Positions 2,425 through 47,459 of a stretch of DNA of 64,000 nucleotides are shown one piece after another (the first letter of the stretch is position 1; the number at the start of each line of letters is the position of its first letter). The notes beneath the pieces were generated by a model that saw nothing but the letters and a program-made list of their open reading frames with translations, was not told where the DNA came from and did not search any database. The stretch spans positions 124,001 through 188,000 of the forward strand of contig NZ_JAGMWN010000002.1 in the NCBI RefSeq assembly GCF_017963645.1. Reading direction: 5' to 3'. The stretch comes from Marivibrio halodurans. GTDB taxonomy: Bacteria > Pseudomonadota > Alphaproteobacteria > UBA8366 > Aestuariispiraceae. Made by a program: the position numbers and the translations under genes.

Positions 2425-2432
2425 GAAGTTAT
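2418..2432. promoter_or_regulatory. LysR-type operator (ATAAC-N5-GTTAT) overlapping the regulator start
   Basis: A perfect dyad, ATAAC then five bases then GTTAT, which also satisfies the T-N11-A LysR box. It covers the -10 box and the first two bases of the LysR start codon, and lies between the regulator and the divergent dioxygenase/HD operon. Binding there would repress the regulator and could activate the divergent operon. Role inferred. Confidence 0.5.
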
Positions 2433-6572: not shown

Positions 6573-6812
6573 CTACCGATCGAACCAAAGGCGCAGCGCC
6601 TCGATCTCCCGGCGGTGAATATCCTCCGGCAGTTCCTCCACGCCGATATCGCGGCGCAGATGCGACGGCAACCGGGCGAGGTCGCGGCGGATTCGATGTT
6701 GCCTCACGGCCTCGCGCGTGCCGTCGATCAGCCGCTTCGCGGCCAGATGCAGGCGGCCCGTCGGGCGGCGTTCTTCCGTCTTTTCCGCGCAAGCCGTCAT
6801 CGTGCAGGTCAT
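6573..6812 (-). CDS. DUF1127 (YjiS-like) small protein
   Basis: A 79-residue protein. The start at 6812 is set by a strong AAGGAG placed 7 bases upstream; the frame is open further but without a better signal. The C-terminal half contains the DUF1127 pattern of basic residues followed by LPSHLRRDIGV. DUF1127 proteins are small and Arg-rich; in Agrobacterium and Rhodobacter relatives they bind RNA and affect RNA turnover and phosphate or stress responses. Its role here is unassigned. It converges with the GNAT gene (17 bases apart) and diverges from a LysR gene. Confidence 0.75.
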   Translation of the reverse strand: MTCTMTACAEKTEERRPTGRLHLAAKRLIDGTREAVRQHRIRRDLARLPSHLRRDIGVEELPEDIHRREIEALRLWFDR

Positions 6813-6916
6813 CGTACCGCTCCTTTTTTCGTCTCCGGTCATACCGGTAATCTGGGCCGGGATGACAGCGGCGAAAAACGGCATTATCTTGCATCGATAT
6901 AAGGAAAGCTTGCATC

Positions 6917-7816: not shown

Positions 7817-7866
7817 AGGGTGCAATGCTCTAGCACCGCTGCGCCGATTCGGCTAACGTCCCGGCC

Positions 7867-8763: not shown

Positions 8764-8819
8764 AGCCCCGGCGGGGGCGCACCGCCGCCGCTCCCGGACA
8801 GCCGCTCCCGGACACCGGT

Positions 8820-9050
8820 CTATCGGTCGTCGAACTGACCGGCTTCGCGCGGGGCGCGGCGTGGATCCTGGAAATCGTCGACTTCTTGATCGTGCCCACT
8901 CCGGTGGGAGCGGTGCATGAGCACCATCAGAGCGGCGTAGAGCCCGAAGGAGAAGATCAGCGCCAGCAGCACCGCGATCCAGCCATGGATCGAGAAATTC
9001 AGGCCGGACAACTCATTGAGCCAGACAGCCAAACTGTCGAGGAAATTCAT
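8820..9050 (-). CDS. Small single-pass membrane protein, unknown
   Basis: A 76-residue protein with one hydrophobic segment at about 24-44 (WIAVLLALIFSFGLYAALMV) and a charged, Asp/Arg-rich tail likely in the cytoplasm. It starts 9 bases after the greA stop, so it is probably translated from the same message. I do not recognise a family. Confidence 0.6.
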   Translation of the reverse strand: MNFLDSLAVWLNELSGLNFSIHGWIAVLLALIFSFGLYAALMVLMHRSHRSGHDQEVDDFQDPRRAPREAGQFDDR

Positions 9051-9059
9051 GGCGCCGGA

Positions 9060-9533
9060 TCACTTATAGCTGACGGAAACGACTTCGTAGTCCTTGGTTC
9101 CGCCGGGGGTGGTCAGTTCGAAGCTGTCGCCGACCGACTTGCCGATCAGGGCGCGGGCAAGCGGCGAGGCGATCGAGAGCTTGCCTTCCGAGATATCGGC
9201 CTCCAATTCGCCGACGAGGCGATAGACCGACTCTTCGTCCGTATCGCAATCCGCCACGGTCACGGTCGCGCCGAACTTCACCTGATCGCCGGAGAGCTTC
9301 GAGGGGTCGATCACGTCCGCCCGGCTGATGCTGTCCTCAAGCTGGGCGATGCGCCCTTCCACGAAGGACTGACGCTCGCGCGCGGCATGATATTCGGCAT
9401 TCTCCGACAGATCGCCATGCTCGCGCGCCTCGGCGATCGCCTGGATGATCGCCGGGCGTTCCTGCGTCTTGAGGGTCTTGAGCTCTTCCTGCATGGCCTC
9501 GTAGCCCTGCAGCGTCATCGGCACTTTCTGCAT
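9060..9533 (-). CDS. greA: Transcription elongation factor GreA
   Basis: A 157-residue GreA. The N-terminal coiled coil (about 10-75) carries the tip acidic residues in [13 protein letters not shown], which reach into the RNA polymerase secondary channel and stimulate cleavage of backtracked RNA. The C-terminal FKBP-like domain (about 80-157) has the conserved [11 protein letters not shown]. The start, MQKVPMT, aligns with classical GreA starts. The gene follows carB on the same strand after 238 bases, the carB-greA order common in alphaproteobacteria. Confidence 0.96.
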
Positions 9534-9771
9534 CGACGATTCCGTCCCGCCTGTTTTCGTCCCGTCGCCGCGTCATGCGCCACGGGGTGTCGATCTTCTT
9601 GTTCCGTGCCGGCATCCGGCACCTCGTCCAACCGTCCGCCCGATCGCCCCCCGATACCTTTCGATACCTGACGGGCGCACCGCCGCCGATACCCCCCGTC
9701 AGGAAGCCGGCAGGCGGCGCGACGATCCTTTCGGGACCGGTCGAACCCTTGGCTCTCTCGGGGGGCAGCGA

Positions 9772-12700
9772 CTAGGCAGAGCGTTTAAAGTACGATTGAA
9801 GCGGAGCGACTTCAAGGGTGCCTTCCTTAAGCGCCCGGATCGCCATCGCCGCCGCGCGCACACCGGATACCGTGGTGTAGTAGGGCACCTTCTGTGCCAG
9901 CGCCGCCTGACGCAGACTGGCGCTGTCCTCGATCGCCTTGCGGCCCTCGGTCGTGTTGAAGATCAACTTGACCTCGCCGTTGATGATCGCGTCCACCACA
10001 TGCGGCTGGCCTTCCAGCACCTTGTTGACCCGACGCACCTCCAGGCCGTGTTCGGCCAGGAAGCGCTGGGTTCCGCTGGTGGCGATCAGCGTCAGCCCGG
10101 CCTCCAACAGCATGCGGGCCGGCTCCAGCACCGCTTCCTTGTCGGAATCCTTGACCGATATGAAGGCCGTGCCTTCCGTCGGCAGGTCGGCGCCGCAACC
10201 GATCTGCGCCTTGGCGAAGGCATGCGCGAAATCGCTGTCGAGGCCCATGACCTCGCCGGTCGATTTCATCTCCGGTCCCAGCAGCACATCGACGCCGGGG
10301 AAGCGGTTGAAGGGGAAGACCGCCTCCTTCACCGCGACGCGCGGGGCAAGGGAGCGATTCTCCAGATCGAAGGCTTCCAGCGTCTCGCCCGCCATCACGC
10401 GCGCCGCGATCTTGGCGATCGGCAGGCCGGTGGCCTTGGCGACGAAGGGAACCGTTCGGCTGGCGCGCGGATTGACCTCCAGGATGAAGACCCGGCCCTG
10501 TTGCACCGCATATTGCACGTTCATCAGCCCGACCACGCCGAGCGCGTGGGCCAGCGCCTCGGTCTGGCGCTTCATCTCCTCGACGGTCTCGTCCGGCAGT
10601 GAATAGGGCGGCAGCGAGCAGGCGCTATCGCCGGAATGGATACCGGCCTCCTCGATATGCTCCATGATGCCGGCGACATGGACGCGCGTCCCGTCGCAGA
10701 TCGCATCGACATCCACCTCGATCGCGTCGCGCAGATAGAAGTCGATCAACACCGGGCTCTTGCCGGAAACCAGAACGGCGGTGCGGATGTAGCGCTTCAG
10801 TTCCGCTTCGTCATGGACGATCTCCATCGCCCGGCCGCCCAGCACGTAGGATGGGCGCAGCACCACCGGATAGCCGATATCGGCGGCGATCTTGAGCGCC
10901 TGCTCCTCCGAGGTGGCGATGCCGTTGGGCGGCTGCATCAGCCCCACCTCGTTCAGCAGGCGCTGGAAGCGCTCGCGATCCTCGGCCAGGTCGATGGCAT
11001 CCGGTGGTGTGCCCAGGATCGGGATGCCGGCGGCCTCCAGCGCGCCCGCGAGCTTGAGCGGCGTCTGCCCGCCGAACTGCACGATACAGCCCAGGACCTC
11101 GCCGCGCTCCTGCTCCTTGCGGACGAGCTCGATCACGTCTTCCGCCGTCAGCGGCTCGAAATAGAGCCGGTCGGAGGTGTCGTAGTCGGTCGAGACCGTT
11201 TCCGGGTTGCAGTTGACCATGATGGTTTCGAACCCGGCATCGGACAGCGCATAGGCCGCATGGACGCAGCAGTAATCGAACTCGATCCCCTGGCCGATGC
11301 GGTTCGGCCCGCCGCCCAGGATGACGACCTTACGGCGGTCGGTGACCTCGGCCTCGTCCTCCGGCTCGGTGATGCCGTCACCTTCATAGCAGGAATACAT
11401 ATAGGGGGTCGCGCTCGGGAACTCCCCGGCGCAGGTGTCGATGCGCTTAAAGACCGGTCGCACGGAAAGGGCGTGCCGATGCGCCGCGACCGCGTCCGCG
11501 GTCTTGCCGGTGAGCTGGCCCAGCCGCTCATCCGAGAAGCCGAGCTTCTTGAGGCCCAGCATCGCCTGCCGGTCGTTCGGCAGCCCCTCGGCGCGGACCC
11601 GGCTCTCGGCCGCCAGGATTTCCGCGATACGCTCCAGGAACCAGGGGTCGATGCGGGTGATGCGGTGCGCCTCCTGGACGCTCATCCCCTGGCGCATGGC
11701 CTGCGCGACCTTGAGCAGCCGGTCGGATGTCGGCTTGGCGATCGCCGCGCGCATCGCGTCCGGGTCCTCGCCGATCTCCATGTCGTCCAGGCCGCAGAGT
11801 CCGGTCTCCATCGAGCGATAGGCCTTTTGCAGGCTTTCCGGGAAGGTGCGGCCGATCGCCATGGCCTCGCCCACCGATTTCATCGAGGTGGTGAGATAAG
11901 GGTCGGCGCCCGGGAATTTCTCGAAGGTGAAGCGCGGCATCTTGGTGACGACATAATCGATCGTCGGCTCGAAGCTGGCCGGCGTCACCTTGGTGATGTC
12001 GTTGTCGAGCTCGTCGAGCGTATAGCCGCAGGCGAGCTTGGCCGCGACCTTGGCGATCGGGAAGCCGGTCGCCTTGGAGGCCAGCGCCGAGGAGCGCGAG
12101 ACGCGCGGGTTCATCTCGATCACGACGAGGCGCCCGCTCTCCGGATCGACCGCGAACTGCACGTTCGAGCCGCCGGTATCCACCCCGATCTCCCGCAGGC
12201 AGGCGATCGAGGCGTCGCGCATGATCTGATATTCCTTGTCGGTCAGCGTCAGCGCGGGCGCGACCGTGATCGAATCGCCGGTATGGACCCCCATCGGGTC
12301 CAGGTTCTCGATCGAGCAGATGATGATGCAGTTGTCGTCCTTGTCGCGGACGACCTCCATCTCGTATTCCTTCCAACCGAGCACGGATTCCTCGACCAGC
12401 ACCGTGTGGACCGGCGAGATGGCGAGGCCGTATTTCGCCATCCGCTCGAACTCCTCGCGGTTATAGGCGATGCCGCCGCCGGTGCCGGCGAGCGTGAAGC
12501 TGGGCCGGATGATCGCGGGCAGCCCGACATAGTCGAGCGCGCGCATCGCCTCCTCCATCGAGGAAACCTGCTGCGAGCGCGGGCTCTCCAGGCCGATGGC
12601 GTCCATCGCCTCGCGGAAGCGCTGGCGATCCTCCGCCTTGTCGATGACGTCGGCGTCGGCGCCGATCATCTCCACGCCCAGGCGCTCCAGCGTACCGTCG

Positions 12701-13029
12701 CGGAACAGGTCGAGCGCGGTGTTGAGGCCCGTCTGCCCGCCCATGGTCGGCAGCAGGACGAGCTTCTCGTCCGGATGCTCGGCGCGTTCGCGTTCCAGGA
12801 TACGGGCGACCGTGTCGGGACGGATCGGTTCGACATAGGTGGCGTCGGCCGTCTCCGGATCGGTCATGATGGTGGCCGGGTTGGAGTTGGCGAGGACGAC
12901 GCGGTAGCCCTCCTCCTTCAAGGCCTTGCAGGCCTGAGTCCCGGAATAGTCGAATTCGCAGGCCTGTCCGATCACGATCGGACCGGCGCCGATGATCATG
13001 ACCGCATCGATGTCTGTGCGCTTGGGCAT
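9772..13029 (-). CDS. carB: Carbamoyl-phosphate synthase large subunit
   Basis: A 1085-residue CarB from ATG 13029 ([18 protein letters not shown]); an upstream extension to 13131 lacks family similarity. Two duplicated ATP-grasp halves are present (first about 1-400, second about 555-935), with an oligomerisation segment between them and a C-terminal MGS-like allosteric domain. The enzyme makes carbamoyl phosphate from bicarbonate, ammonia and 2 ATP for arginine and pyrimidine synthesis, taking ammonia from the small subunit CarA. No carA gene is in the window; the gene upstream on this strand is OpgC-like. Confidence 0.97.
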
Positions 13030-13253
13030 GGGGGCGCGGTGCCTCGGTCGGTTTGTCAGCGTTGGCGCGAAAAGGGCGCGCGGTGATTGCGGCCCGCTTT
13101 CGTCGCGTCCCCGCCCGATCCGGCCACGCACGAAGGCGCGGCCGCGCGGCGAGGGGGCCGACCCGCGAACCGGGGCGTGTTTACATCATGGCAGGGGGGG
13201 ACGCCAGCCCCCGCACGCGGGATTCCACGCAGCGCGCGATGCCCCATGGCATG

Positions 13254-14498
13254 TCATTCCGCGCCCGCCGGCCGGACGTGCGTCGCTGTCGGGTCGCCCC
13301 GGCCGGCGGCATTCGACCGCATGTCCGAGGGAGAGACCTTCGTTCGTTCCCGCCAGGGCTGGCGCTTCAGCATCGTGCACCAATAGGCGAAGCCGACCAG
13401 AACCGCCATGCCGCCCAGATTGACCAGCAGGAAGGTGATCCCGTTCCGCCCCATCTGGTCGAGCGCCATGCCGGCGATTCGCGCTAGTCCCATGGAGAGA
13501 AGGAAAATCGGCAGCGAATTGCGGCCCACCGTGATGATCGGCATGGCATAGCGCGAAAGCAGCGCCGCCTCCCGCCCCTCCACGACACGTAGGGCGAGAT
13601 AGGCCAGCGCCAGGAAATGCAGATAGCGCAGGATGCCGAAATCCGTCTTGTCCCGGATTGGCCAGATCACGACGCGCAGCTCGCGCAGCGCCTCGAAATG
13701 CTGTGCCGTCCCCCAATGGGCCGCGGGAATGCAGAGCACGACGAACAGCGCGCAGATCCAGGTCAGGGCGGCGGAACGCGGCGGCGGCGGCAACCAGCCC
13801 CGCGCGAAGGAGAAGCCGGTAAAGAACAGAAGCTGCCAAGCCAGCGGATTGAAGAACCATTCGCGCGTGACGTCCTCCCGCCACGCCTCCGCCGGGAGGT
13901 CCCAGCCGAACCCGGCATTGAGCGCGTAGAGCGTGAAGCTCGCCGCGATCGGCAGCAGCTTATGTACGAGCGAGAGCGCCATGATCGCCGGCACCATGAC
14001 GAGCGCGCCGATATACATCGGCAGAATGTCGAAATAATTCGGGACGTAGGTCAGCGTGAAGAGCCCCATCATGCCCTCCGCCGGGTGCTCCAGGAACCAG
14101 CCGAGATTGAGTCCGTCGATATACTCCCCCTCCGGCAGGAGGTGGGCGCCCGCGACCGTGATCGCGGCGATATAGAAGAACATCCCGATATGGGCGGCAT
14201 AGACCTGCCAGACGCGGAACAGGATGCGCGTGCAGCCATAGCCGAACCCCGCCTTCACGAAGGTACCGCCGAACGCGATGGCGGCGGCGAAACCCGAGCA
14301 GAAGACGAACATCTCCGTCGCGTCCGACCAGCCGAAGCGTGCCGGGATGAACAGCGTCCAGAGATTGCCCGGCACATGCGCGATGAAGATGATCAGCATC
14401 GCGATACCCCGGAAGAAATCCAGGCGTGGGTCGCGGGGCGTCTTGGCCGGAACCGGATTGGGCGCGGGGGTCGGGACGGAGGTCGGGGGTGGGGCCAT
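13254..14498 (-). CDS. OpgC-like multi-pass membrane acyltransferase
   Basis: A 414-residue membrane protein of the OpgC/acyltransferase-3 type. A Pro/Ala-rich cytoplasmic start leads to RDPRLDFFRGIAMLIIFIAHV, the usual first segment with the conserved Arg and His of this family, and about ten further hydrophobic segments are visible. OpgC proteins succinylate osmoregulated periplasmic glucans. No opgG or opgH gene is nearby, so a related acyl transfer to another surface glycan is possible. The C-terminal tail of about 35 residues is polar. Confidence 0.85.
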   Translation of the reverse strand: MAPPPTSVPTPAPNPVPAKTPRDPRLDFFRGIAMLIIFIAHVPGNLWTLFIPARFGWSDATEMFVFCSGFAAAIAFGGTFVKAGFGYGCTRILFRVWQVYAAHIGMFFYIAAITVAGAHLLPEGEYIDGLNLGWFLEHPAEGMMGLFTLTYVPNYFDILPMYIGALVMVPAIMALSLVHKLLPIAASFTLYALNAGFGWDLPAEAWREDVTREWFFNPLAWQLLFFTGFSFARGWLPPPPRSAALTWICALFVVLCIPAAHWGTAQHFEALRELRVVIWPIRDKTDFGILRYLHFLALAYLALRVVEGREAALLSRYAMPIITVGRNSLPIFLLSMGLARIAGMALDQMGRNGITFLLVNLGGMAVLVGFAYWCTMLKRQPWRERTKVSPSDMRSNAAGRGDPTATHVRPAGAE

Positions 14499-35440: not shown

Positions 35441-35848
35441 ATGGCTGATGCCTTTCCCTATGAGGTCTATGCGGTGCGGGCCGGTTCCTCCGCGCCGGTC
35501 TTCGCTCTCGTCTCGCCCGTTCGGGTGTTGCTGGTTCTTCTGGGGCGGGAAGCGCCGCCTCTCGGCACATCGATGGTGACCGCGCTCAAGGAGATCGATT
35601 GCTCTCCGCGCGACGTGCGCGACATCGTCCATGTCGGCGAGGCGCCGGAGGATGGCCCGCGCAGCGTCGCGGCCTTCGCCGATGCTTGGATACATCGCGT
35701 CACGGGAGAAAAGGACCTGCTGGCCGGCATCAGCGCCGTGCGTGACGAGGACGGGCGCCTTACCCTGCGCGTCACCACGCGCGGCGGGCGCCTGATCCTG
35801 CCCGCGCTGGACCAGGTGCCCGCCGGCGCGGCGGTGCGGTTGGATTAG
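35441..35848 (+). CDS. Conserved hypothetical protein, 135 residues
   Basis: I do not recognise this family. It is a soluble alpha/beta-looking protein with no signal peptide or membrane segment; the strands VLLVLL and LTLRVTT and the C-terminal [19 protein letters not shown] are the clearest features. The stop TAG (35846-35848) overlaps the clpB stop on the other strand, so the two genes share bases at their ends. No strong ribosome binding site is seen before ATG 35441. Confidence 0.6.
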
Positions 35849-38463
35849 GCCGCCTCGGCCTTCACCTGCGTGCCGTTGATGACGAGGCCGTCCGCGTCGG
35901 CGGTGACGCGGACCGTGTCGCCGTCCACGATCCCTCCTTCCAGGATCAGCGTGGCCAGCGGGTTCTGCAGGTGCTTCTGGATCACCCGCTTCAACGGCCG
36001 CGCGCCATAGACCGGGTCATAGCCGGTCGCGCCCAGCCAGTGCTTGGCCGCCTCGTCCACCTCCAGCCCGATCCGGCGGTCCGCCAGGAGCTTGGTGAGA
36101 TGGCCGAGCTGGATATCGACGATCCCGGTCATGTTCTCCCGGCCGAGGCGGCGGAACAGCAGGATTTCGTCCAGCCGGTTGAGGAATTCCGGCCGGAAGG
36201 CGCCGCGCACGACGTTCATCACCTGCTGGCGCGCCTCCTCGACATCCTGGCCGTCCTCCTGGGCCGCCAGGAATTCCGCGCCCAGGTTCGAGGTCATGAC
36301 GATCAGCACGTTGCGGAAATCGATCGTCCGGCCCTGGCCGTCCGTCAGGCGCCCCTCGTCCAGTACCTGGAGCAGGACGTTGAAGACATCCGGATGGGCC
36401 TTTTCCACCTCGTCGAACAGCACGACCTGATAGGGTCGGCGGCGCACGGCCTCGGTCAGGGCGCCGCCCTCGTCATAGCCGACATAGCCCGGGGGCGCGC
36501 CGATCAGGCGGCTGACCGAGTGTTTCTCCATGAATTCCGACATGTCGATGCGCACCATGGCGGTGTCGTCGTCGAACAGGAATTCGGCGAGCGCCTTGGT
36601 CAGTTCCGTCTTGCCGACGCCGGTCGGCCCCAGGAACAGGAAGCTGCCGATCGGCCGGTTCGGGTCCTGCAGGCCGGCCCGGCTGCGCCGCACGGCGTTG
36701 GCGACGGCCTTGATGGCCGCGTCCTGGCCGATCACCCGCTTGGCCAGCAGGCTTTCCATGCGGACCAGCTTCTCGCGCTCGCCTTCCAGCATCTTGTCGA
36801 CCGGAATGCCGGTCCAGCGGCTGACGACGCTGGCGATATCCTGGTCGGTGACGGCTTCGTTCAGCATATGGCCCTGGCCCGCGTCCGCCTCGTCGTCGTC
36901 GCGTGCCTCGGCGGTGGCGAGCTTCTTCTCCAGATCGGGGATCACGCCATAGGCGAGCTCGCCCGCCCGGTCGAAACGCCCGTCGCGCTGCGCCTGGGCA
37001 AGCTCGACGCGTGCCGCGTCCAGTTTCTCCTTCAGTTCCTGGGCGGAATGCAGCTTCTCCTTCTCCGCCTGCCAGGCGGCGGTCATGTCGGCGCTTTGCT
37101 TCTCCAGCCCGGTCAGTTCCTCCTCCAGCTTCTCCAGCCGCTCGCGGGAACCCTTGTCGGTCTCCTTCTTGAGGGCCTCGCGCTCGATCTTGAGCTGGAT
37201 GATCCGCCGGTCGAGTTCGTCGATCTCCTCCGGCTTGCTATCGACCTCCATGCGCAGGCGCGAGGCCGCCTCGTCCATCAGGTCGATCGCCTTATCCGGC
37301 AGGAACCGGTCGGTGATGTAGCGGTTGGAGAGCGTCGCGGCCGCAACCAGCGCCGAATCCTGGATGCGCACGCCGTGATGGACCTCGTATTTCTCCTTCA
37401 GACCACGCAGGATCGAAATGGTGTCGGCCACCGTCGGTTCCGCCACGAAGACGGACTGGAATCGCCGGGCCAGCGCCGCGTCCTTCTCGATATGCTTGCG
37501 GTATTCGTCGAGTGTCGTGGCGCCCAGACAGTGCAATTCGCCGCGCGCCAGCGCCGGTTTCAGCATGTTGGAGGCATCCATCGAGCCTTCCGCCGCGCCG
37601 GCGCCCACCAGCGTGTGCAATTCGTCGATGAACAGGATGATACCGCCCTCGTCGGCCGCGACCTCCTCCAGCACGGCCTTCAGCCGTTCCTCGAACTCGC
37701 CGCGGAACTTGGAGCCCGCGACCATCGCGGACAGGTCGAGCACCAGCAGTTTCTTATCGCGCAGCGCCTCCGGCACGTCGCCATTGACGATGCGCAGCGC
37801 CAGCCCCTCGACGATCGCGGTCTTGCCGACGCCGGGCTCGCCGATCAGCACGGGGTTGTTCTTCGTCCGGCGCGAAAGCACCTGGATCGACCGGCGGATT
37901 TCCTCGTCCCGCCCGATGACGGGGTCGAGCTTGCCGTCCCGCGCGGCCTGGGTCAGGTCGCGGGTGTATTTCTTGAGCGCGTCGAACTTGCCTTCCGCGT
38001 TCTGGCTATCGGCCGTGCGGCCCTTGCGCATGTCCTTGATGGCCTTGTTGAGGGCCTGCGGATTGACGCCCGCGTCGGCCAGCGTCTTGGCCGCCCCCGT
38101 TCCCGACGCCATGGCGAGCGCCAGCAGCATCATCTCGGCCGTCACGAAACTGTCGCCGTTGTTCTTGGCGAGGTCCTCCGCCTGGCTCAACAGCTTCGCC
38201 GTCGCGGTGTCGAGATGGAGCGAATTGGCCCCGCCACCCTGAACCTTGGGCTGCTTGACCAGATCCGTCTCGACGAGCGCCAGCGCGCGCTTCGGATCGC
38301 CGCCGGCGGCCCGGATGAGGGTCGCTGCCAGCCCTTCCTCGTCGTCGAGCAGGACCTTGAGCAGATGGTCGGGAACCAGCCGTTGGTGATCCGAATTGAT
38401 CGCCAGCGTCTGGGCGGACTGGATGAAACCGCGACTGCGGTCGGTGAACTTCTCGAAATTCAT
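35845..38463 (-). CDS. clpB: ATP-dependent disaggregase ClpB
   Basis: An 872-residue ClpB from ATG 38463 ([17 protein letters not shown]). An N-terminal Clp_N domain (about 1-145), AAA+ module 1 with Walker A GEPGVGKT near 205, a long coiled-coil middle domain (about 400-540) and AAA+ module 2 with Walker A GPTGVGKT near 608 are all present. The middle domain marks it as ClpB rather than ClpA or ClpC. With DnaK it dissolves aggregated proteins after heat stress. A sigma-32-like promoter lies about 130 bases upstream. Confidence 0.97.
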
Positions 38464-38590
38464 GCCTGTCGATCCTCTTCGTTCGTCCCCCGCATCATGC
38501 AGCGAGACGTCCAAGAACCCGAATGCCACGGGCCGGACTTCCGGCCAGGAGACCCGCTTCGGCGGCGTCCCCGCATTCATCGTACCAGAT

Positions 38591-38619
38591 ATATTGGAAG
38601 CGCGGGGAAGGGCCACAAG
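38591..38619 (-). promoter_or_regulatory. RpoH (sigma-32)-like promoter of clpB
   Basis: On the minus strand CTTG is followed after 18 bases by CCAATAT. This fits the alphaproteobacterial heat-shock consensus CTTG-N17/18-CYTATNT with one mismatch in the -10 element. It lies 128 bases upstream of the clpB start. The other 150 bases of this 306-base gap hold the upstream region of the divergent dioxygenase gene, with nothing else recognised. Confidence 0.5.
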
Positions 38620-38769
38620 ACCGATGATTCGGGCTGCGTGGCGTATCGGCCCCTTGTTCGCGTCTATCCCGCCATTGGGTGAAATCAATGGGGCCGCGGG
38701 CCTCGGGGATTGTTACATGGCTGCAATATAACTGCGCTAACCACCGACCCCTGCTGAAAGGATGACGGC

Positions 38770-39966
38770 ATGGACACCCTGACCCGAGCGACCCCCCATA
38801 CGGACGCCGCCGATCTCGTCGCGGAACTCGCCGGTGTCGAGGACCGGGCGCTGACGCTGCGCTGGCCCGACGGCGCGACCCATCGGTTCGACGCGGTTTG
38901 GCTGCGCGACAATGCGCGCGGCGACGCCCACCGCCATGGCGGCAACGACCAGCGCCTGTTCGATGTCGCCGACCTGCCGGCGGACATTACCATCGCGGCG
39001 GCCGAAATCGCGGCGGACGGAAATCTTCGCCTGACGGTCGAGCCGGAGGGGCTGGATCTCGTCTTCTCGCCCGGATGGCTGCGCGTGAACGCCTATGATG
39101 GCCGGTCCGGCGTGGGAGGTAACGAAGACGGTGAGGGGGGCGCGCCCGCGACCTGGGACGCGCGCCTCGCCGACCGCCTCGTCCGGCACGATTACGCCGC
39201 CGTCACCCGCGATCCGGCCGCCCTGTATGATTGGCTGGACGCGATCCGCGCGGACGGCTTCGCGCTGATGCATAACGTCCCGGCGGAACCGGGCATGGTC
39301 TGCCGGTTGGCCTCCCTCTTCGGTTTCGTGCGCGAGACCAATTACGGGCGCCTGTTCGACGTGCGCAGCGAGGCGCGACCGAACAACATGGCCTTCACCG
39401 CGGCCGGATTGGGTGTGCACACCGATAATCCCTATCGCGACCCGGTGCCGGGGCTGCAACTCCTCCATTGCCTGGCGGCGGAGGAGGATGGCGGTGCCTC
39501 CATCGTCGTGGACGGGTTCGAGGCCGCCCGTCGCCTGGCGGAGAGCGCGCCGGAGGATTTCGCCCTGTTGGCGCGCTGGCGGGTGCCCTTTCGCTACCGT
39601 ACCGGCACGACCGACCTGCGCGCCCGCCGCCGGTTGATCGAGGTGGACGAGGCCGGACGGCCGATCGCGGTCGCCTACAATAACCGCTCCATCGCGCCGC
39701 TGGATCTTCCGGCGGAGGTAATGCCGGCCTATTATCGGGCCTATCGGCGGTTCTCGGAGGTTCTGCGCGACCCGTCTCTCGCCGTGCGCTTCAAGATGGG
39801 ACCGGGCGATCTGTTCGTGGTCGACAATCGCCGGGTGCTGCACGGCCGGGACGGTTTCGCGGGCGGCACCCGCCATCTTCAGGGCTGCTACGCCGATATG
39901 GATTCGCTGTTGAGCCAGCTTCGCGTCATGGAACGCGAGCGCGGCGGCGAGGGGGAACGGGCATGA
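38770..39966 (+). CDS. TmpA-like 2OG-Fe(II) dioxygenase of the gamma-butyrobetaine hydroxylase family (pair 2)
   Basis: A 398-residue TauD/TfdA-superfamily enzyme. The N-terminal DUF971-like domain (about 22-108) has WLRDNARGDAH in place of the zinc-binding Cys cluster. The catalytic domain shows His217-x-Asp219 (VHTDNPYRDPVPG), His358 (VLHGR) and Arg368 as 2-oxoglutarate ligand. AAGGA lies 8 bases before the ATG. The HD-oxygenase gene overlaps its stop by 4 bases, so the two are translationally coupled. With a PhnZ-type partner the best guess is hydroxylation of a trimethylammonium phosphonate (TmpA reaction); carnitine formation from gamma-butyrobetaine is the alternative. Confidence 0.85.
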   Translation: MDTLTRATPHTDAADLVAELAGVEDRALTLRWPDGATHRFDAVWLRDNARGDAHRHGGNDQRLFDVADLPADITIAAAEIAADGNLRLTVEPEGLDLVFSPGWLRVNAYDGRSGVGGNEDGEGGAPATWDARLADRLVRHDYAAVTRDPAALYDWLDAIRADGFALMHNVPAEPGMVCRLASLFGFVRETNYGRLFDVRSEARPNNMAFTAAGLGVHTDNPYRDPVPGLQLLHCLAAEEDGGASIVVDGFEAARRLAESAPEDFALLARWRVPFRYRTGTTDLRARRRLIEVDEAGRPIAVAYNNRSIAPLDLPAEVMPAYYRAYRRFSEVLRDPSLAVRFKMGPGDLFVVDNRRVLHGRDGFAGGTRHLQGCYADMDSLLSQLRVMERERGGEGERA

Positions 39967-40601
39967 CCGCCCCGACGACCAACCGGGAAACCGGCATTCG
40001 GGATACCCTGCCGAGCGACCCCGACCGGGTGACGGCCGTGACGGCGGTGGACTTCATCCTCGCCCTCTTCGCCCAGGCGGGCGGGCGCGACTATCTGGGC
40101 GAGGTGGTGAGCCAGCAGGAGCACGCGCTGCAATGCGCCGTCTGCGCCGATCAGGAGGACGCGCCGCCGCCGCTGGTCGCCGCCAGCCTGCTGCACGATG
40201 TCGGGCATTATCTGCATGATTGCGCGGAGGACGCGGCCGCCCAGGGCCTGGACAGCCGGCACGAGCAGGCGGGCGCCGATTTCCTGGCCCGCTTCTTCCC
40301 GCCGGAGGTCTCGGAGCCGGTGCGCCTGCATGTCGATGCCAAGCGCTATCTCTGCGCGGTGGAGCCGGATTATTTCGACCGTCTGTCGGAGGCGAGCGTC
40401 CATTCGCTCAATCTCCAGGGCGGACCGATGTCCCCGGCGGAGGTCGCGGCCTTCGAGGCCAATCCGCATCATCGCGCCGCCGTGCGGCTGCGCCGTTGGG
40501 ACGAGACCGGCAAGGTCGAGGGGCTGCGCACGCCCGCGCCGGAGGATTTCCGCGCGTTGCTGGCGGGGTTGGTGCGCCCCGTCGGCGCGGACGGCCGCTG
40601 A
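39963..40601 (+). CDS. PhnZ/TmpB-type HD-domain diiron oxygenase (pair 2)
   Basis: A 212-residue protein with the complete PhnZ signature. Tyr44 and Glu47 (YLGE) correspond to PhnZ Tyr24 and Glu27; His54, His78-Asp79, His100, His123 and Asp179 correspond to the iron ligands His34, His58-Asp59, His80, His104 and Asp161; Lys127 corresponds to Lys108. It also shares LLHDVGHY, AKRYL and the later LQGGPM. PhnZ and TmpB use a mixed-valent diiron centre and O2 to cleave the C-P bond of alpha-hydroxyphosphonates, releasing phosphate. The start overlaps the dioxygenase stop. About 20 extra N-terminal residues precede the family core. Confidence 0.87.
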   Translation: MTAPTTNRETGIRDTLPSDPDRVTAVTAVDFILALFAQAGGRDYLGEVVSQQEHALQCAVCADQEDAPPPLVAASLLHDVGHYLHDCAEDAAAQGLDSRHEQAGADFLARFFPPEVSEPVRLHVDAKRYLCAVEPDYFDRLSEASVHSLNLQGGPMSPAEVAAFEANPHHRAAVRLRRWDETGKVEGLRTPAPEDFRALLAGLVRPVGADGR

Positions 40602-40692: not shown

Positions 40693-41934
40693 ATGGATGC
40701 GATGAGCGAGACGCCACTGCCGCTCGACGGGCTGCGAATCCTGGATATGAGCCGGATTCTGGCGGGGCCGACCTGCACGCAGTATCTGGGTGACCTGGGC
40801 GCCGACGTGATCAAGGTCGAACGGCCCGGCGCCGGCGACGACACGCGCAAATGGGGGCCGCCCTATCTGCGCGACGCCGAGGGCGCGGAGACGGAGGAGA
40901 GCGCCTATTACCTCTCATCCAACCGCTCCAAGCGCTCGGTGGCGATCGACGTCTCCACGCCGGAGGGGCAGGCGCTGATCAAGCGGCTGCTCGTCGGCTG
41001 CGACGTGCTGATCGAGAATTACAAGGTCGGCGGCCTGAAGAAATACGGCCTGTCCCATGACGATCTGAAGGATGATTTCCCGGGGCTCGTCTATTGCTCG
41101 ATCACCGGTTTCGGCCAGACCGGCCCCTATGCGGCGCGCGCGGGCTATGATTTCCTGGCGCAGGGCATGGGCGGCATCATGTCGGTGACCGGCGCGCCGG
41201 AGGGGGAGCCGACGAAGGTCGGCGTCGGCATCGCCGACGTGATGTGCGGCATGTACGCGACCACCGCGATCCTGGCCGCGCTGCGCCACCGCGACCGCAC
41301 CGGCGAGGGCCAGCATATCGACGCCTGCCTGCTCGACACCCAGGTCGCCTGGTTGATCAACGAGGGGTGCAACTATCTGATATCCGGCAAGGTGCCGAAG
41401 CGGATGGGCAACGAGCATCCCAACATCGTCCCCTATAAGGTGTTCGAGGTGAAGGACGGCTTCGTCATCCTGGCCATCGGCAACGACGCGCAGTTCCAGC
41501 GTTGGTGCGGGTTCGCGGGCGCCGGGGATCTGGCGGCCGATCCACGCTTCCAGACCAACAAGGACCGCGTCACCAATCGCGCCGTCCTTTATGCGGAGAT
41601 GCCGCGCTACATGATCGTCCGGACGATCGACGAATGGGTCGATGGGCTTGCCGCCATCGGCGTGCCCTGCAGCCCGGTCAACACGATCGACCGCGTCTTC
41701 GACGACCCACAGGTCCAGGCGCGCGGCATGCGCATCGACCTGCCGCACCATCAGGCGGGCGGCGACGGCACCGTGCCGTTGATCGCCAATCCGATGAAAT
41801 TCTCCCGCACGCCGGTGCGCTATCGGCGTGCCCCGCCGACGCGCGGGCAGCATACGGACGAGATTCTCTCGGAAACGCTCGACCTCGACGCGGCGGAGAT
41901 CGCGCGGCTGCGTGCGGCCGGCGCGATCGAGTAG
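40693..41934 (+). CDS. CaiB/BaiF-family CoA-transferase
   Basis: A 413-residue class III CoA-transferase. The N-terminal PLDGLRILDMSRILAGPTCT and GADVIKVERPGAGDDTR are typical, and Asp182 in VGVGIADVMCG is the probable catalytic Asp that forms the acyl-anhydride. Family members move CoA between carboxylic acids (formyl-CoA:oxalate, succinyl-CoA:mesaconate, crotonobetainyl-CoA:carnitine). It lies 91 bases after the HD-oxygenase gene and before soxB on the same strand. A carnitine CoA-transferase role would support the carnitine reading of the cluster, but this family is too broad to decide. Confidence 0.88.
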   Translation: MDAMSETPLPLDGLRILDMSRILAGPTCTQYLGDLGADVIKVERPGAGDDTRKWGPPYLRDAEGAETEESAYYLSSNRSKRSVAIDVSTPEGQALIKRLLVGCDVLIENYKVGGLKKYGLSHDDLKDDFPGLVYCSITGFGQTGPYAARAGYDFLAQGMGGIMSVTGAPEGEPTKVGVGIADVMCGMYATTAILAALRHRDRTGEGQHIDACLLDTQVAWLINEGCNYLISGKVPKRMGNEHPNIVPYKVFEVKDGFVILAIGNDAQFQRWCGFAGAGDLAADPRFQTNKDRVTNRAVLYAEMPRYMIVRTIDEWVDGLAAIGVPCSPVNTIDRVFDDPQVQARGMRIDLPHHQAGGDGTVPLIANPMKFSRTPVRYRRAPPTRGQHTDEILSETLDLDAAEIARLRAAGAIE

Positions 41935-42078: not shown

Positions 42079-42095
42079 ATCCGTTGGGGTTGTCG

Positions 42096-43352
42096 ATGGG
42101 CGAGTATTCGGTCTGGAGCGTGCTGAAGGGCGGGTTCACCGCCCAACGCCATTGGAAACCCGCCTGGCGCGATCCCGATCCGAAGCCGGCCTATGACGCG
42201 CTGATCGTCGGCGGGGGCGGGCATGGTCTGGCGAGCGCCTTCTATCTCGCCAAGCTGCACGGCATGCGCAATATCGCGGTGCTGGAGAAGGGCTGGCTGG
42301 GCGGCGGCAATACCGGGCGGAACACGACCATCGTGCGCTCCAACTACATGTTGGAGGGCAATGCGCATTTCTATGAGAAGTCGCTGCAACTGTGGGAGGG
42401 GTTGAGCCAGGAACTCGGCTACAACGTCATGTTCTCCCAGCGCGGCGTGATCAATCTGGCGCATTCGGACGCGCAGATGGACGCCTATGCCCGGCGCGGC
42501 AACGCCATGCGCCTCAACGGGATCGATGCCGAACTGCTCTCCCGCGAGGAGGTGCGTGCCCGCGCGCCGATGTGCGATTTCTCCGACAAGGCGCGGTTCC
42601 CGATCCATGGCGGGCTGTTGCAGCCGCGCGGCGGCACGGCGCGGCACGACGCGGTCGCCTGGGGCTTCGCGCACGCGGCCGACCGGCTGGGCGTCGATAT
42701 CATCCAGAATTGCGAGGTGACCGGCATCGATGTCGAGCAGGGCCGCGTCACCGGCGTTCAAACCACGCGCGGTGCGATCAAGGCGCCGAAGATCGGCCTC
42801 GCCGTCGCCGGGCACACGACGCAACTGGCCGAGATGGCCAGCCTGCGCCTGCCGATCGAGAGCCATTTGCTCCAAGCCATGGTGTCGGAGCCGCTGAAGC
42901 CCTGGATCGACACGGTCGTCACCTTCGGCGCCGGGCATTTCTATATCAGCCAGTCGGACAAGGGCGGCCTCGTCTTCGGCGGCGACCTCGACGGCTATAA
43001 TTCCTTCGCCCAGCGCGGCAACATGCCGACGGTGGAACATGTGATCCAATGCGGCGTGGCCCTGATGCCGGGGTTGAAGCGCCTGCGCCTACTGCGCCAT
43101 TGGGGCGGCGTCATGGACATGACCATGGACGGCAGCCCGATCATCGGCCGCACGCCGGTGGAGGGGCTCTATCTCAATGGCGGCTGGTGCTATGGCGGCT
43201 TCAAGGCGACGCCGGGCAGCGGCTGGGTCTTCGCCCATACCATCGCCCAGGACCGGCCGCACAAGCTGAACGAGGCGCTGGGGCTGGAGCGGTTCGAGAC
43301 CGGCGCCCTGCTGGACGAGCGCGGCGCCGGTCCGGTGCCCGGCTGGCATTGA
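42096..43352 (+). CDS. soxB: Sarcosine oxidase beta subunit
   Basis: A 418-residue flavoprotein. The dinucleotide-binding motif LIVGGGGHGLASAFYLAK is at about 34-51, followed by GNTGRNTTIVRSNY, typical of SoxB, which binds FAD noncovalently and FMN covalently. It oxidises sarcosine to glycine, passing the one-carbon unit to tetrahydrofolate on SoxA. ATG 42096 aligns with known SoxB starts (GEYSVWSVLKGG); a TTG at 42084 is a less likely alternative. It is the first gene of soxBDAG. Confidence 0.95.
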   Translation: MGEYSVWSVLKGGFTAQRHWKPAWRDPDPKPAYDALIVGGGGHGLASAFYLAKLHGMRNIAVLEKGWLGGGNTGRNTTIVRSNYMLEGNAHFYEKSLQLWEGLSQELGYNVMFSQRGVINLAHSDAQMDAYARRGNAMRLNGIDAELLSREEVRARAPMCDFSDKARFPIHGGLLQPRGGTARHDAVAWGFAHAADRLGVDIIQNCEVTGIDVEQGRVTGVQTTRGAIKAPKIGLAVAGHTTQLAEMASLRLPIESHLLQAMVSEPLKPWIDTVVTFGAGHFYISQSDKGGLVFGGDLDGYNSFAQRGNMPTVEHVIQCGVALMPGLKRLRLLRHWGGVMDMTMDGSPIIGRTPVEGLYLNGGWCYGGFKATPGSGWVFAHTIAQDRPHKLNEALGLERFETGALLDERGAGPVPGWH

Positions 43353-43400: not shown

Positions 43401-43715
43401 ATGTTTCGGATTGAATGCCCCTGGTGCGGCACGCGCGACATGGTGGAATTCACCTATGTCGGCGACGGCACGCTGACCCGCCCGGCGCTCGGCGCGCGGA
43501 CAGGTCATTTCGAGCATGTCTATCTGCGCGCCAACCCGAAGGGCACGCATGTCGAGCTTTGGCATCATGTCGCGGGCTGCCGCCAGCATGTGGCGGTGAA
43601 GCGCGATACCCTCACCCATGAGATCCTGGCGACCGGCGGACCGGGCGAGGTGACGGCCGCGCGCGACGACGTGCCGAAGGGCGCGGCAAAAGGCGAGACG
43701 GGGGGCATGGCGTGA
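43401..43715 (+). CDS. soxD: Sarcosine oxidase delta subunit
   Basis: A 104-residue zinc protein. Cys6 and Cys9 (ECPWCGTRD) with His56 and Cys60 (HVAGC) match the four zinc ligands of SoxD. It is a structural subunit of the heterotetramer. Its stop overlaps the GTG start of soxA (GTGA). The C-terminal 20 residues are Lys/Gly/Ala-rich and probably disordered. Confidence 0.94.
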   Translation: MFRIECPWCGTRDMVEFTYVGDGTLTRPALGARTGHFEHVYLRANPKGTHVELWHHVAGCRQHVAVKRDTLTHEILATGGPGEVTAARDDVPKGAAKGETGGMA

Positions 43716-46700
43716 GCGAGTATCGCAAATCCCCCCGCTCCCCCCTGCCCAGCGTCGCGCCGCCGAAGTCGCGGCCCATGCGCGTGGCCGACGGCGGGCG
43801 CATCGACCGCACGCGGCGGCTTAGCTTCACCTTCGATGGTGTCGCGATGACCGGGTTCGAGGGGGATACGCTCGCCTCCGCCCTGTTGGCGAATGGCGTC
43901 GATCTGGTCGGGCGCAGCTTCAAGTATCACCGCCGGCGCGGCATCTTCTCCAACGGGCCGGAGGAGCCGAACGCCCTGGTCCGTCTGCGTGTCGGCGCGC
44001 GGATGGAGCCCAATACGCGCGCCACCATGGTCCCCCTCTATGACGGGCTGGTGGCGGAGAGCCAGAATCGCTGGCCCACGCTGGCCCACGATATCCAGGC
44101 GCTCAATTGGCTGATCGCGCCCTGGATTCCGGCGGGGTTCTACTACAAGACCTTCATGGGCCGCGCGGCCAACACCCGGCTTTGGATGTGGTTCGAGAAA
44201 TCGATCCGCCGGGCCGCCGGCATGGGCACCGGCACGCACGAGGCCGACCCCGACGACTATGACAAGATGACCGCCCATTGCGAGGTGCTGGTGATCGGCG
44301 GCGGGCCGTCGGGCCTGGCCGCGGCGCGGGCGGCGGCGGCCGGCGGCGGCCGCGTGGTCCTGGTCGATGAGCGCGAGGATTTCGGCGGCCGCCTGCTGAT
44401 GGACCGCGAGACGATCGACGGCGAGGAGGGCGCCGCCTGGGCCGCCCGGATGCGCGCGGAATTGGCGGCGCTTTCCAATGTCCGCCTGCTGCCCCGGACC
44501 ACCGCCTTCGGCTATTACGACCATAACCGGATCGGCTGTGTCGAACGGGTGAGCGACCATCTGATCGAGCCCGAGCCGCATCGCCCGCGCCAGCGCCTGT
44601 GGTCGATCCGCGCGGCGGAGGTGGTGCTGGCCACCGGCGCGATCGAACAGCCGCTCGCCTTCGCGGACAACGATCTGCCGGGCGTCATGCTGGCGGGGGC
44701 GGTGCGCGCCTATGCCAACCAATATGGCGTGAAGGTGGGCGAGCGTATCGTGATCGCCACCAACAACGACGACGCCTATCGCACGGCCTGCGATCTGGAC
44801 GATGCCGGCGCCTGGGTGGAGGCGGTCGTCGATATGCGCCCGAAGGGGGCGGAGCCTACGCTGCGCGCGGCGATCAAGGAGCGCGGGATCGACATCCTGC
44901 ATGGTTGGGCGCCGGTGAAGGCGCAAGGCACGAAGCGCGTGCGCGGCCTCGCCATCCTGAAGATCGACGAGACCGGCAAGCCCGTCGGCAATCAACGTGC
45001 GGCCAGTTGCGATATCGTCGCGATATCCGGCGGTTGGCAACCGACGCTCCACCTCTTCAGCCAGACCGGCGCCAAGGCGGTCTGGGACGATGCGAAGGCG
45101 TGCTTCCTGCCCGGCCCGCCGCGCCAGCGCGAACGCTCCGCCGGGGCCTGCGCCGGGCGCTTCACGCTGTCCGAATGCCTGGAGGGCGGGCACGCCGCCG
45201 GCCTGGACGCGGCGGAGAAGGCCGGCGCCGCGCGCCCAACCCTCGCGGCACCCCGGGCCGAGGTCACCCCGCAGAACCCGCCGCGCGCGATCTGGGAGTG
45301 CCCCAAGCCGGTGAACACGCCGGGCAAGCGCTTCGTCGATTTGCAGGACGATGTCGCCGTCTCCGACATTCAACTCGCCCATCGCGAGGGCTATGTCTCG
45401 GTCGAGCATCTGAAGCGCTACACCACCCTCGGCATGGGGACGGACCAGGGCAAGACCTCCAACATCGCGGGCTTCGCCGTGATGGCGGCCGCGCGCGGGG
45501 TCGAAATCGGGCGCACCGGCACCACCACCTTCCGCCCGCCCTATACGCCGGTCGCGCTCGGCGCGCTGGCCGGGCCGGAGGTGGGGGAGCATTACGCCCC
45601 CCTGCGCCGCACGCCGATGGATTCCTGGCATGCGGAACGGGGCTGCACCTGGATCGACGCCGGCCTCTGGCGCCGCCCGCGCACCTATCCCGCCCATGAG
45701 GGGGAGGGGCTGTTCGATGCCTATATCCGCGAGACCAAGGCGGTGCGCGGCTCGCTCGGCCTGTGCGACGTCACCACGCTCGGCAAGATCGACATCCAGG
45801 GGCCGGATGCGGCGGAATTCCTGAACCGCCTCTATATCAACGGCTGGAAGACGCTTCCCGTCGGCAAGGCGCGCTATGGCCTCATGCTGCGCGAGGATGG
45901 GCTCGTCCTCGACGATGGCACGACCTCGCGCCTGGGCGAGACGCATTTCCTGATGACGACGACGACGGCGAACGCCGTGCGCATCATGGCCTGGATCGAG
46001 TACTATCTGCAGGTCGTCTGGCCGGATCTGCGGGTGAAGGCGACCAGCGTGACGGAACAATGGGCGGCGATGGCGATCGCCGGGCCGAAGGCGCGCGAAT
46101 GCCTCGCCACCGTGGTGGACCGCGACCTTTCCAACGAGGCCTTTCCCTTCATGGCCTGTGGGCCGTGCGTGATCGACAAGGGCGTGGCGGGGGCCGAGAT
46201 TCCGGCGCGTCTCTTCCGCATCAGCTTCTCGGGCGAGCTTGCCTATGAACTGAACGTCCCGGCCGATCATGGCCGCGCGGCGTGGGAGCGGCTGATGGCG
46301 GCCGGCGCGCCCTTCGATATCGTGCCCTACGGCATGGAGGCGCTCGGCAATATGCGGATCGAGAAGGGGCATGTCGCGGGGCCGGAACTGGACGGCCGGA
46401 CGACCGCCGAGGATCTGGGGCTGGGCCGCATGATGTCCTCGAAGAAGGATTTCATCGGCGCGCAACTCGCCAGGCGGCCCGACATGACGCGGCCGGACCG
46501 CAAGCAGCTGGTCGGCCTCGTACCGGTGGACGGCAAGACGCGCCTCGGCCAGGGCGCGCAACTCGTCGCCGCCGACGCGCCGGCGCGGGCCGGATCGCTC
46601 GCCGCCGGTGGGGCGCCGGTCGCGATGATCGGTCATGTCACCTCGACCGGCTACAGCCCGGAACTGGACCACCCCATCGCGCTTGGCCTCGTGGAGAATG

Positions 46701-46819
46701 GGCGCGCGCGGCATGAGGAGGTGATCGCGATGCGCGATCCGGTGCGCGGGCGTGAAACGAAGGTGCGCATCGTCGCCCCCGTCTTCGTCGATCCGGAGGG
46801 AGAACGGCTCCATGGCTGA
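43712..46819 (+). CDS. soxA: Sarcosine oxidase alpha subunit
   Basis: A 1035-residue SoxA starting at GTG 43712. In order: an N-terminal ferredoxin-like fold (about 35-110, RSFKYHRRRGIFSNGPEEPN), an NAD-binding FAD/NAD oxidoreductase domain with VIGGGPSGLAAARAA near 192, and a C-terminal aminomethyltransferase/GCV-T-like domain (about 610-1010) that binds tetrahydrofolate and captures formaldehyde as methylene-THF. Length and domain order match heterotetrameric sarcosine oxidase alpha. It overlaps soxD by 4 and soxG by 8 bases. Confidence 0.95.
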   Translation: MSEYRKSPRSPLPSVAPPKSRPMRVADGGRIDRTRRLSFTFDGVAMTGFEGDTLASALLANGVDLVGRSFKYHRRRGIFSNGPEEPNALVRLRVGARMEPNTRATMVPLYDGLVAESQNRWPTLAHDIQALNWLIAPWIPAGFYYKTFMGRAANTRLWMWFEKSIRRAAGMGTGTHEADPDDYDKMTAHCEVLVIGGGPSGLAAARAAAAGGGRVVLVDEREDFGGRLLMDRETIDGEEGAAWAARMRAELAALSNVRLLPRTTAFGYYDHNRIGCVERVSDHLIEPEPHRPRQRLWSIRAAEVVLATGAIEQPLAFADNDLPGVMLAGAVRAYANQYGVKVGERIVIATNNDDAYRTACDLDDAGAWVEAVVDMRPKGAEPTLRAAIKERGIDILHGWAPVKAQGTKRVRGLAILKIDETGKPVGNQRAASCDIVAISGGWQPTLHLFSQTGAKAVWDDAKACFLPGPPRQRERSAGACAGRFTLSECLEGGHAAGLDAAEKAGAARPTLAAPRAEVTPQNPPRAIWECPKPVNTPGKRFVDLQDDVAVSDIQLAHREGYVSVEHLKRYTTLGMGTDQGKTSNIAGFAVMAAARGVEIGRTGTTTFRPPYTPVALGALAGPEVGEHYAPLRRTPMDSWHAERGCTWIDAGLWRRPRTYPAHEGEGLFDAYIRETKAVRGSLGLCDVTTLGKIDIQGPDAAEFLNRLYINGWKTLPVGKARYGLMLREDGLVLDDGTTSRLGETHFLMTTTTANAVRIMAWIEYYLQVVWPDLRVKATSVTEQWAAMAIAGPKARECLATVVDRDLSNEAFPFMACGPCVIDKGVAGAEIPARLFRISFSGELAYELNVPADHGRAAWERLMAAGAPFDIVPYGMEALGNMRIEKGHVAGPELDGRTTAEDLGLGRMMSSKKDFIGAQLARRPDMTRPDRKQLVGLVPVDGKTRLGQGAQLVAADAPARAGSLAAGGAPVAMIGHVTSTGYSPELDHPIALGLVENGRARHEEVIAMRDPVRGRETKVRIVAPVFVDPEGERLHG

Positions 46820-47459
46820 AACGGCATCCCTTCACCCCGCCCGCCGCTCCGCGCTGGAAGGGCATCTCCTGCCCGGCGATGTGGGGGGCATCGGCGCGGA
46901 CGGGCCGGGATTGACGGTGACGGAGCGTCGCGCGCTCGCCATCGCGCAGGTCGAGGCCTGGGGCGAGAGCGTGGAAGAAACCCAGGAGGCCATCGCCAAG
47001 ACGATCGGCATCCGCCCGTCGCGGGAACCGCTGACGGCGGTGAGCGCGGATCGGGCGGTGGCGCTGTGGCTCGGCCCGGAACGCTGGCAGATCGTGGAAC
47101 CGGAGGCCGCCCGTGCCGGAGCCGATGACGGGGCCGGGCTGGTCGGGGTGCTGGCGCGCGCGCTCGGCACCCAGGCCGCCGTGACCGACCAGGGTCATGG
47201 CCGGGTGTGCCTGCGGATCGGTGGGCCGGCGCTTCTTCCGGTGCTGGCGAAGGGCTGCACGCTCGACCTCGATCCGGGGCGCGATCTCGATCCGGGCCGG
47301 GTGGCGAACACCAGCCTCGGCCACATGGCCGCGACCATCCACCGGACCGCGACGGACGGGGCGGATATCTATGTCGCGCGGTCCTTCGCCGTCAGTTTCG
47401 TGGACTGGCTGCTTCATGCGGCGGCCGAATATGGCTGCCGCGTCACCGATCCGGAATAA
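46812..47459 (+). CDS. soxG: Sarcosine oxidase gamma subunit
   Basis: A 215-residue SoxG. The start ATG 46812 (MAETASLHPARRSALEG) lies 8 bases inside soxA; an upstream in-frame extension is not conserved. The protein is GCV-T-like at a distance and completes the heterotetramer; its role is structural. Motifs such as LWLGPERWQIV and the final SFVDWLLHAA are typical. It ends the sox operon, with 86 bases before the next gene. Confidence 0.93.
   Translation: MAETASLHPARRSALEGHLLPGDVGGIGADGPGLTVTERRALAIAQVEAWGESVEETQEAIAKTIGIRPSREPLTAVSADRAVALWLGPERWQIVEPEAARAGADDGAGLVGVLARALGTQAAVTDQGHGRVCLRIGGPALLPVLAKGCTLDLDPGRDLDPGRVANTSLGHMAATIHRTATDGADIYVARSFAVSFVDWLLHAAAEYGCRVTDPE

Follow-up and report, generated by a model that had tools for sequence, protein, structure and literature searches.

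What do two overlapping genes in the genome of Marivibrio halodurans do, one encoding a relative of γ-butyrobetaine (GBB) dioxygenases and the other an HD-domain protein? In the window, the 64,000-nucleotide stretch of DNA analyzed here, both open reading frames at 38770-40601 are real, and their coordinates and 4-base overlap are as given by the first-pass annotation:

38770-39966, plus strand, gene for a TmpA-type Fe(II)/2-oxoglutarate dioxygenase, 398 aa
39963-40601, plus strand, gene for a PhnZ/TmpB-type HD-domain diiron oxygenase, 212 aa
39963-39966, plus strand, ATGA overlap, the dioxygenase stop and the HD gene start having 4 bases in common

A scan for promoters and terminators found none, and no transporter or regulator gene was found directly adjoining the pair.

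We propose that the pair probably forms a TmpA/TmpB-type pathway, for which the conversion of (2-trimethylaminoethyl)phosphonate to glycine betaine and phosphate is the best single reading. The substrate would be a quaternary aminoethylphosphonate, (2-trimethylaminoethyl)phosphonate being the likeliest, whose carbon adjacent to phosphorus the Fe(II)- and 2-oxoglutarate-dependent dioxygenase would hydroxylate; the HD-domain oxygenase, with a mixed-valent diiron center, would then use O2 to cleave the C-P bond and so release phosphate and glycine betaine. The two genes are presumably co-transcribed and probably translationally coupled. This two-enzyme logic, suggested in the first-pass annotation, is backed by the TmpA equivalog model, by the trees, by the pattern of substrate residues, by the gene overlap, and by natural fusions elsewhere. 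The background on TmpA/TmpB and PhnZ follows passages of PMC8177086, PMC9296572, and PMC10574752; in the last of these, TmpA and TmpB of Leisingera caerulea (6npb and 6npa) are likewise a two-gene operon for the same enzyme types.

The predicted product of the first gene is a canonical TmpA in score and in phosphonate clamp. Its nearest solved relative is the TmpA structure 6npb (E 5.6e-106; 51% identity over the solved stretch), followed by human GBB dioxygenase (E 2.1e-47). It passed the TmpA equivalog model NF049936 of NCBIfam release 20 with 446.3 bits against a cut-off of 400, and the same model had zero matches over 14 control genomes. According to passages of PMC9296572, N187, N287, and R288 of TmpA hydrogen-bond the phosphonate, and human BBOX has just two asparagines in this place. 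Chain and paper numbering differ by a constant 6, and on this mapping the corresponding residues here are N206, N305, and R306, which are conserved in 46, 45, and 47, respectively, of the 47 TmpA proteins with an HD partner (9 from the bacterium's family and 38 from outside it). H217, D219, and H358 are invariant and lie at the expected positions of the iron triad, which they would form. In a quick IQ-TREE phylogeny of 84 dioxygenases, the 57 TmpA rows, among them the window's protein and 6npb, made up one side of a branch with moderate support (SH-aLRT 87).

A gamma-butyrobetaine dioxygenase for carnitine standing beside an unrelated HD phosphohydrolase would be a more ordinary reading of these genes, and the first protein does fall close below the cut-off of the GBB dioxygenase model TIGR02409 (385.8 bits against 414.75). 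Pfam likewise gives nothing beyond TauD and GBBH-like_N for this protein, and for the second an HD match just below cut-off. The TmpA model was nevertheless passed, and the clamp arginine is present here, whereas hBBOX has an alanine at the position of R306. The HD protein carries a YxxE motif, K127, and six metal ligands, and at E ≤ 0.1 it matched no solved structures but TmpB and PhnZ; moreover, the adjacency of the two genes is recurrent, and fusions exist. We regard the carnitine reading as highly improbable, having ruled it out on the models, the residues, and the coupling. With BBOX, the dioxygenase has in common the protein family and also, if the substrate is the one we infer, the trimethylammonium group. 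Automatic annotation had been expected to call the two genes carnitine synthesis and HD phosphohydrolase, but NCBIfam release 20 gives other names: TmpA, over cut-off, for the first gene, which falls short as a GBB dioxygenase, and TIGR03276, likewise over cut-off, for the second, so the feared mislabeling is unfounded for these models.

The HD protein aligned with TmpB 6npa at 43% identity over the solved stretch (E 1.9e-46) and with PhnZ 4mlm at 38% (E 9.8e-35); for both proteins of the pair, the similarity to solved relatives goes well past what chance would give. Its metal ligands are H54, H78, D79, H100, H123, and D180, accompanied by the lid residues Y44 and E47 and by K127 and R177. All positions named in the first-pass annotation agreed (Tyr44, Glu47, His54, His78-Asp79, His100, His123, and Lys127) except Asp179; the true last iron ligand is Asp180, because its alignment column is invariant across the HD protein, TmpB, and PhnZ. 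In PhnZ-like HD oxygenases, the lysine and the arginine have a role in gripping the substrate. The pair thus has the N/N/R clamp, the YxxE motif, and the six ligands in common with Leisingera caerulea TmpA/TmpB, and with PhnY*/PhnZ (4mlm, acting on 2-aminoethylphosphonate) an HD diiron oxygenase with all ligands, YxxE, Lys, and Arg.

Unlike Leisingera TmpB, the HD protein fell below the TmpB equivalog cut-off (NF049941, 207.7 bits against 300). It did better with the general model TIGR03276, "phosphonate degradation HD-domain oxygenase" (217.6 bits, cut-off 214.6). As a calibration, we scored 10 TmpA-partnered HD proteins against the TmpB cut-off: five passed, and five failed at 194-225 bits (L079, L085, L013, L011, and the fused L061), so such a failure is not rare.

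The HD protein also lacks the methionine pair of Leisingera TmpB, having Q51 and A55 around the ligand His54. Outside the clade of the bacterium's family, Met51 was present in 33 of 38 TmpA-partnered HD proteins and Met55 in 37 of 38, a signature that was found by scanning for such columns rather than predicted and that is no published criterion. Within the family clade, Gln51 occurred in 13/13 and Ala/Gly55 in 12/13, Met55 being left only in L011, a locus of Curvivirga aplysinae that has the pair. HD proteins without a TmpA partner had Gln51 in 40 and Ala/Gly55 in 40 of the 41 compared, a comparison that omits L014, L068, and L075 (which fall in the TmpB clade and for which no neighboring same-strand TmpA was found) and the very divergent L132 and L133, which miss some ligands. 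Judged from these columns, replacement of the two methionines may leave room for a shifted substrate range of the HD enzyme.

Our counts leave out L126 (taken as the contig of L011, with equal length and tblastn scores) and the duplicates L164 and L182. In a tree of 113 HD proteins, the window's protein fell in a 13-row clade (support 98) that covers 13 of the 14 family genomes. This clade is nested in a moderately supported group of 57 rows (SH-aLRT 83) comprising 42 TmpA-partnered proteins, 6npa included, 5 fusions, 1 PhyH-partnered protein, and 9 others; PhnZ 4mlm lies outside the group on a long branch. When 54 TmpA-partnered and allied HD rows were constrained to a single clade, the AU test did not reject the arrangement (p-AU 0.851), and the free quick tree came out 23.8 log units worse than the constrained one; the list of 54 was completed with the tree already seen, so this test was not blind. 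The tree comparison with TmpB and PhnZ proposed in the first-pass annotation thus sides the protein with TmpB and the TmpA-partnered HD proteins. From alignment and tree position, we conclude that the HD half is a divergent TmpB-like variant common to the bacterium's family.

Gln51 and Ala55, by resembling HD proteins without a TmpA partner, would also suit a pathway of the PhnY*/PhnZ kind, acting on aminoethylphosphonate or methylphosphonate. PhnY* is a PhyH-type enzyme, but the first enzyme here is of the TauD/GBBH or TmpA type. Among the best 80 loci of our scan of named genomes, an HD gene had a PhyH-type partner in four; all four proteins lie outside the 13-row clade, three of them outside the 57-row group as well and L059 at its unresolved base. 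The match to the hydroxymethylphosphonate dioxygenase model reached only 174.6 bits against a cut-off of 300. Partner type and tree position led us to rule out a PhnY*/PhnZ identity, to which we attach very little probability.

A TmpA/TmpB-type pathway, our preferred reading, is also in keeping with how these genes are arranged elsewhere. The scan of named genomes confirmed at least 167 relatives, the best 80 of which were used as loci. In 38 of these 80, a TmpA-like gene and the HD gene were same-strand neighbors no more than 500 bases apart; adjacency was counted from tblastn hits because the gene caller had missed genes in several loci. Many other TmpA loci have a divergent gene, LysR-type by reading, whereas the neighbors here are clpB, a CoA-transferase gene, and soxBDAG. 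In 5 of the 38 loci, TmpA and HD form a single fused open reading frame, and placing the fusion label on the HD tree requires at least two changes. Such TmpA-TmpB fusions argue for a tight coupling of the two steps. The fusion of L061, the only one scanned with NCBIfam, passed the TmpA model and reached 214.7 bits with TIGR03276 against the cut-off of 214.6, staying below that of TmpB. According to passages of PMC10574752, PhoF is a fungal fusion of PhnY and PhnZ. The two-oxygenase logic is common to PhoF and the window's genes, which are separate with a 4-base overlap, and the fusions found in other bacteria are a TmpA-TmpB version of the same arrangement. The fused frames, around locus positions 6650-8550, belong to L038, L048, L061, and L083 (Kitasatospora) and to L024 (a gammaproteobacterial MAG). 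In our clustering, TmpA and TmpB fell together in a single cluster, probably on account of the fused frames.

The HD gene is more widespread in the bacterium's family than its partner. TIGR03276 had a match at E ≤ 3.0e-59 in all 14 family genomes, over the cut-off in 4 of them, and a weaker, short second HD match was also present in 14/14; among the 14 control genomes, 3 had a match and none was over the cut-off. TmpA was above its cut-off in nine family genomes, and the HD gene adjoins it in those same nine. The site is marked by a divergent neighbor that is outside the pathway:

35845-38688, minus strand, clpB, named by reading the sequence

In 12/14 family genomes, no more than about 2 kb separates this gene from the pair or from the HD gene; if our reading is right, the HD gene serving TmpA/TmpB-type use of phosphonates would be old in the family. 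Beside clpB in G008, G009, G011, and G013 (L128, L127, L125, and L131), the HD gene stands with no TmpA above cut-off. The best HD protein of G006 falls outside the family clade. In that genome (L130, about 9591-10154), an HD-oxygenase gene lies about 2.7 kb from PhnJ and near a gene for a phosphonate-binding protein, with no TmpA above cut-off.

The same two-step C-P cleavage may operate in the family on a substrate range that is shifted or wider, either on a less methylated aminoethylphosphonate or with the HD enzyme also taking naturally hydroxylated aminophosphonates; we think this alternative rather unlikely. It would fit the Gln51 and Ala/Gly55 of the family clade and the retention of the HD gene, with all ten checked residues intact, in the four genomes where TmpA was not above its cut-off; this retention suggests that the HD enzyme may draw a hydroxyphosphonate from elsewhere. 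The canonical score and clamp of the TmpA half count against it, as do two actinobacterial, TmpA-partnered proteins (L051 and L079) that combine Met55 with Gln51. In addition, TmpA is described as highly substrate-specific in passages of PMC10574752.

We return to the TmpA/TmpB-type reading and its metabolic setting. Downstream of the pair, after 91 bases, the window continues as follows:

40693-41934, plus strand, CoA-transferase family III, the next gene downstream
42084-43352, plus strand, soxB, sarcosine oxidase family
43401-43715, plus strand, soxD, sarcosine oxidase family
43712-46819, plus strand, soxA, sarcosine oxidase family
46752-47459, plus strand, soxG, sarcosine oxidase family, start uncertain

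Both soxD and soxG are below the NCBIfam cut-offs and above those of Pfam. Nothing indicates that the CoA-transferase belongs to the pathway. The glycine betaine formed might be used further by way of SoxBDAG. Our set contains just one more genome of the genus, G007, in which tblastn found neither the CoA-transferase nor SoxBDAG in the stretches examined; because the adjacency was not found there, we gave SoxBDAG less weight as a sign that glycine betaine is the product.

Elsewhere in the bacterium's own genome, phnC, phnD, phnE, and phnE follow in a row on the contig that carries the pair, about 256 kb away from it, each above its curated cut-off, and PhnJ of the C-P lyase is present. There is also a GbcA-GbcB-like pair, at 511 and 381.7 bits below the cut-offs of 670 and 500. 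The genome can thus probably import phosphonates (PhnCDE), demethylate glycine betaine (GbcAB-like), and process sarcosine (SoxBDAG). Across the family, PhnJ is found in 12/14 genomes; G002 and G003 carry the pair and had no PhnJ match. The phosphonate-binding domain PF12974 matched in 14/14 family genomes and also in 12/14 controls, so it carries little weight by itself. TmpA and a GbcA-like protein (>500 bits) occurred together in seven of the 14 family genomes, TmpA only in two, GbcA only in one, and neither in four, an association that is not significant among these related genomes (Fisher p 0.09).

The window's pair is of a known pathway type, recurrently coupled, and its divergent HD half is the new element. 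If this is right, the HD enzyme would be a naturally occurring variant of TmpB, useful for finding out which residues determine specificity. A second pair in the window, with the same gene order as TmpA-TmpB (508-2328), is the more novel lead:

1180-2328, minus strand, TauD2, first gene of the second pair, TmpA-related
508-1122, minus strand, HD2, second gene of the second pair, PhnZ-like predicted fold
2431-3378, plus strand, LysR-type regulator, divergent from the second pair

TauD2 and HD2 fell short of TmpA/TmpB membership on the model cut-offs, and the clamp asparagines and the lid residues are changed. TauD2 reached 337.6 bits with NF049936 (cut-off 400) and HD2 51 bits with TIGR03276, far below 214.6. 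In the numbering of the window's TmpA, TauD2 has D206 and S304-P305-R306-L-D308, as opposed to N206 and N304-N305-R306-S-I. In the dioxygenase tree, 20 TauD2-type rows made up one side of a branch (92), nearly all with D206 and an S-x-R-[LV]-D-like stretch; G061 and G185 have Lys for Arg. HD2 and 15 family relatives keep the six metal ligands in 16/16, with Glu47 and Lys127 in 0/16; neither Tyr44 nor Arg177 ranks among the three most frequent letters, the alignment being loose around 44-47. A predicted model of HD2 (pLDDT 84.5), computed from an alignment of TmpB/PhnZ relatives, matched PhnZ and TmpB first and MIOX weakly (E 0.12).

A class sample of 385 genomes had a TauD2 match at E ≤ 1e-60 in 31 and an HD2 match at E ≤ 1e-20 in 109. 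By motif and coordinates, 17 of the 31 were TauD2-type; HD2 directly followed on the same strand in 9 of these, spanning five families, and did not follow in the other 8. HD2 often occurs without TauD2. Within the bacterium's family, TauD2 stands beside HD2 in 4/14 genomes, and in G007 the two are on separate contigs. Upstream of an HD2-type gene in G109 (L257, 8957-10565, minus strand) lies a gene for a PhyH-family dioxygenase, with a divergent LysR-type gene; from this arrangement, HD2 would seem able to partner 2-oxoglutarate oxygenases of both types.

A narrow search of the open-licence literature found no report of a TauD2-HD2-type pair. Our joint reading, which we offer tentatively, is that the window may hold two parallel two-oxygenase pathways: a TmpA/TmpB variant that has lost the Met pair, perhaps with a shifted substrate, and TauD2-HD2, possibly an unnamed, recurrent pair type that keeps the iron ligands, lacks the PhnZ/TmpB lid and Lys/Arg, and would hydroxylate and then cleave a new substrate. 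For HD oxygenases that cleave after hydroxylation, passages of PMC10574752 give four known versions of the strategy. Judging by the second pair, it may extend past these four, in the class sample even to genomes of only 1.4-1.5 Mb.

The genomic contexts of TauD2-HD2 disagree about its substrate. A phosphonate is favored by the Pho context in G274 and G350, and a grip like that of PhnZ is disfavored by the lack of the lid, Lys, and Arg in HD2. In these two genomes of one genus (L241 and L242), the pair lies between PhoR-like kinase and PstS-like genes, all below cut-off, the kinase having been scanned in G274 only. In G366, a GbcA-like gene (422.4 bits, cut-off 670) lies close to the pair. In the 1.4-Mb genome G347 (L243, about 8100-13340), the pair is near a gene for DMSP demethylase that passed its cut-off (483.2 against 410) and near Rid-like and MFS genes with weak matches. 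In another 1.4-Mb genome, G043 (L245, about 8750-11010), an enolase-superfamily gene replaces HD2 after TauD2.
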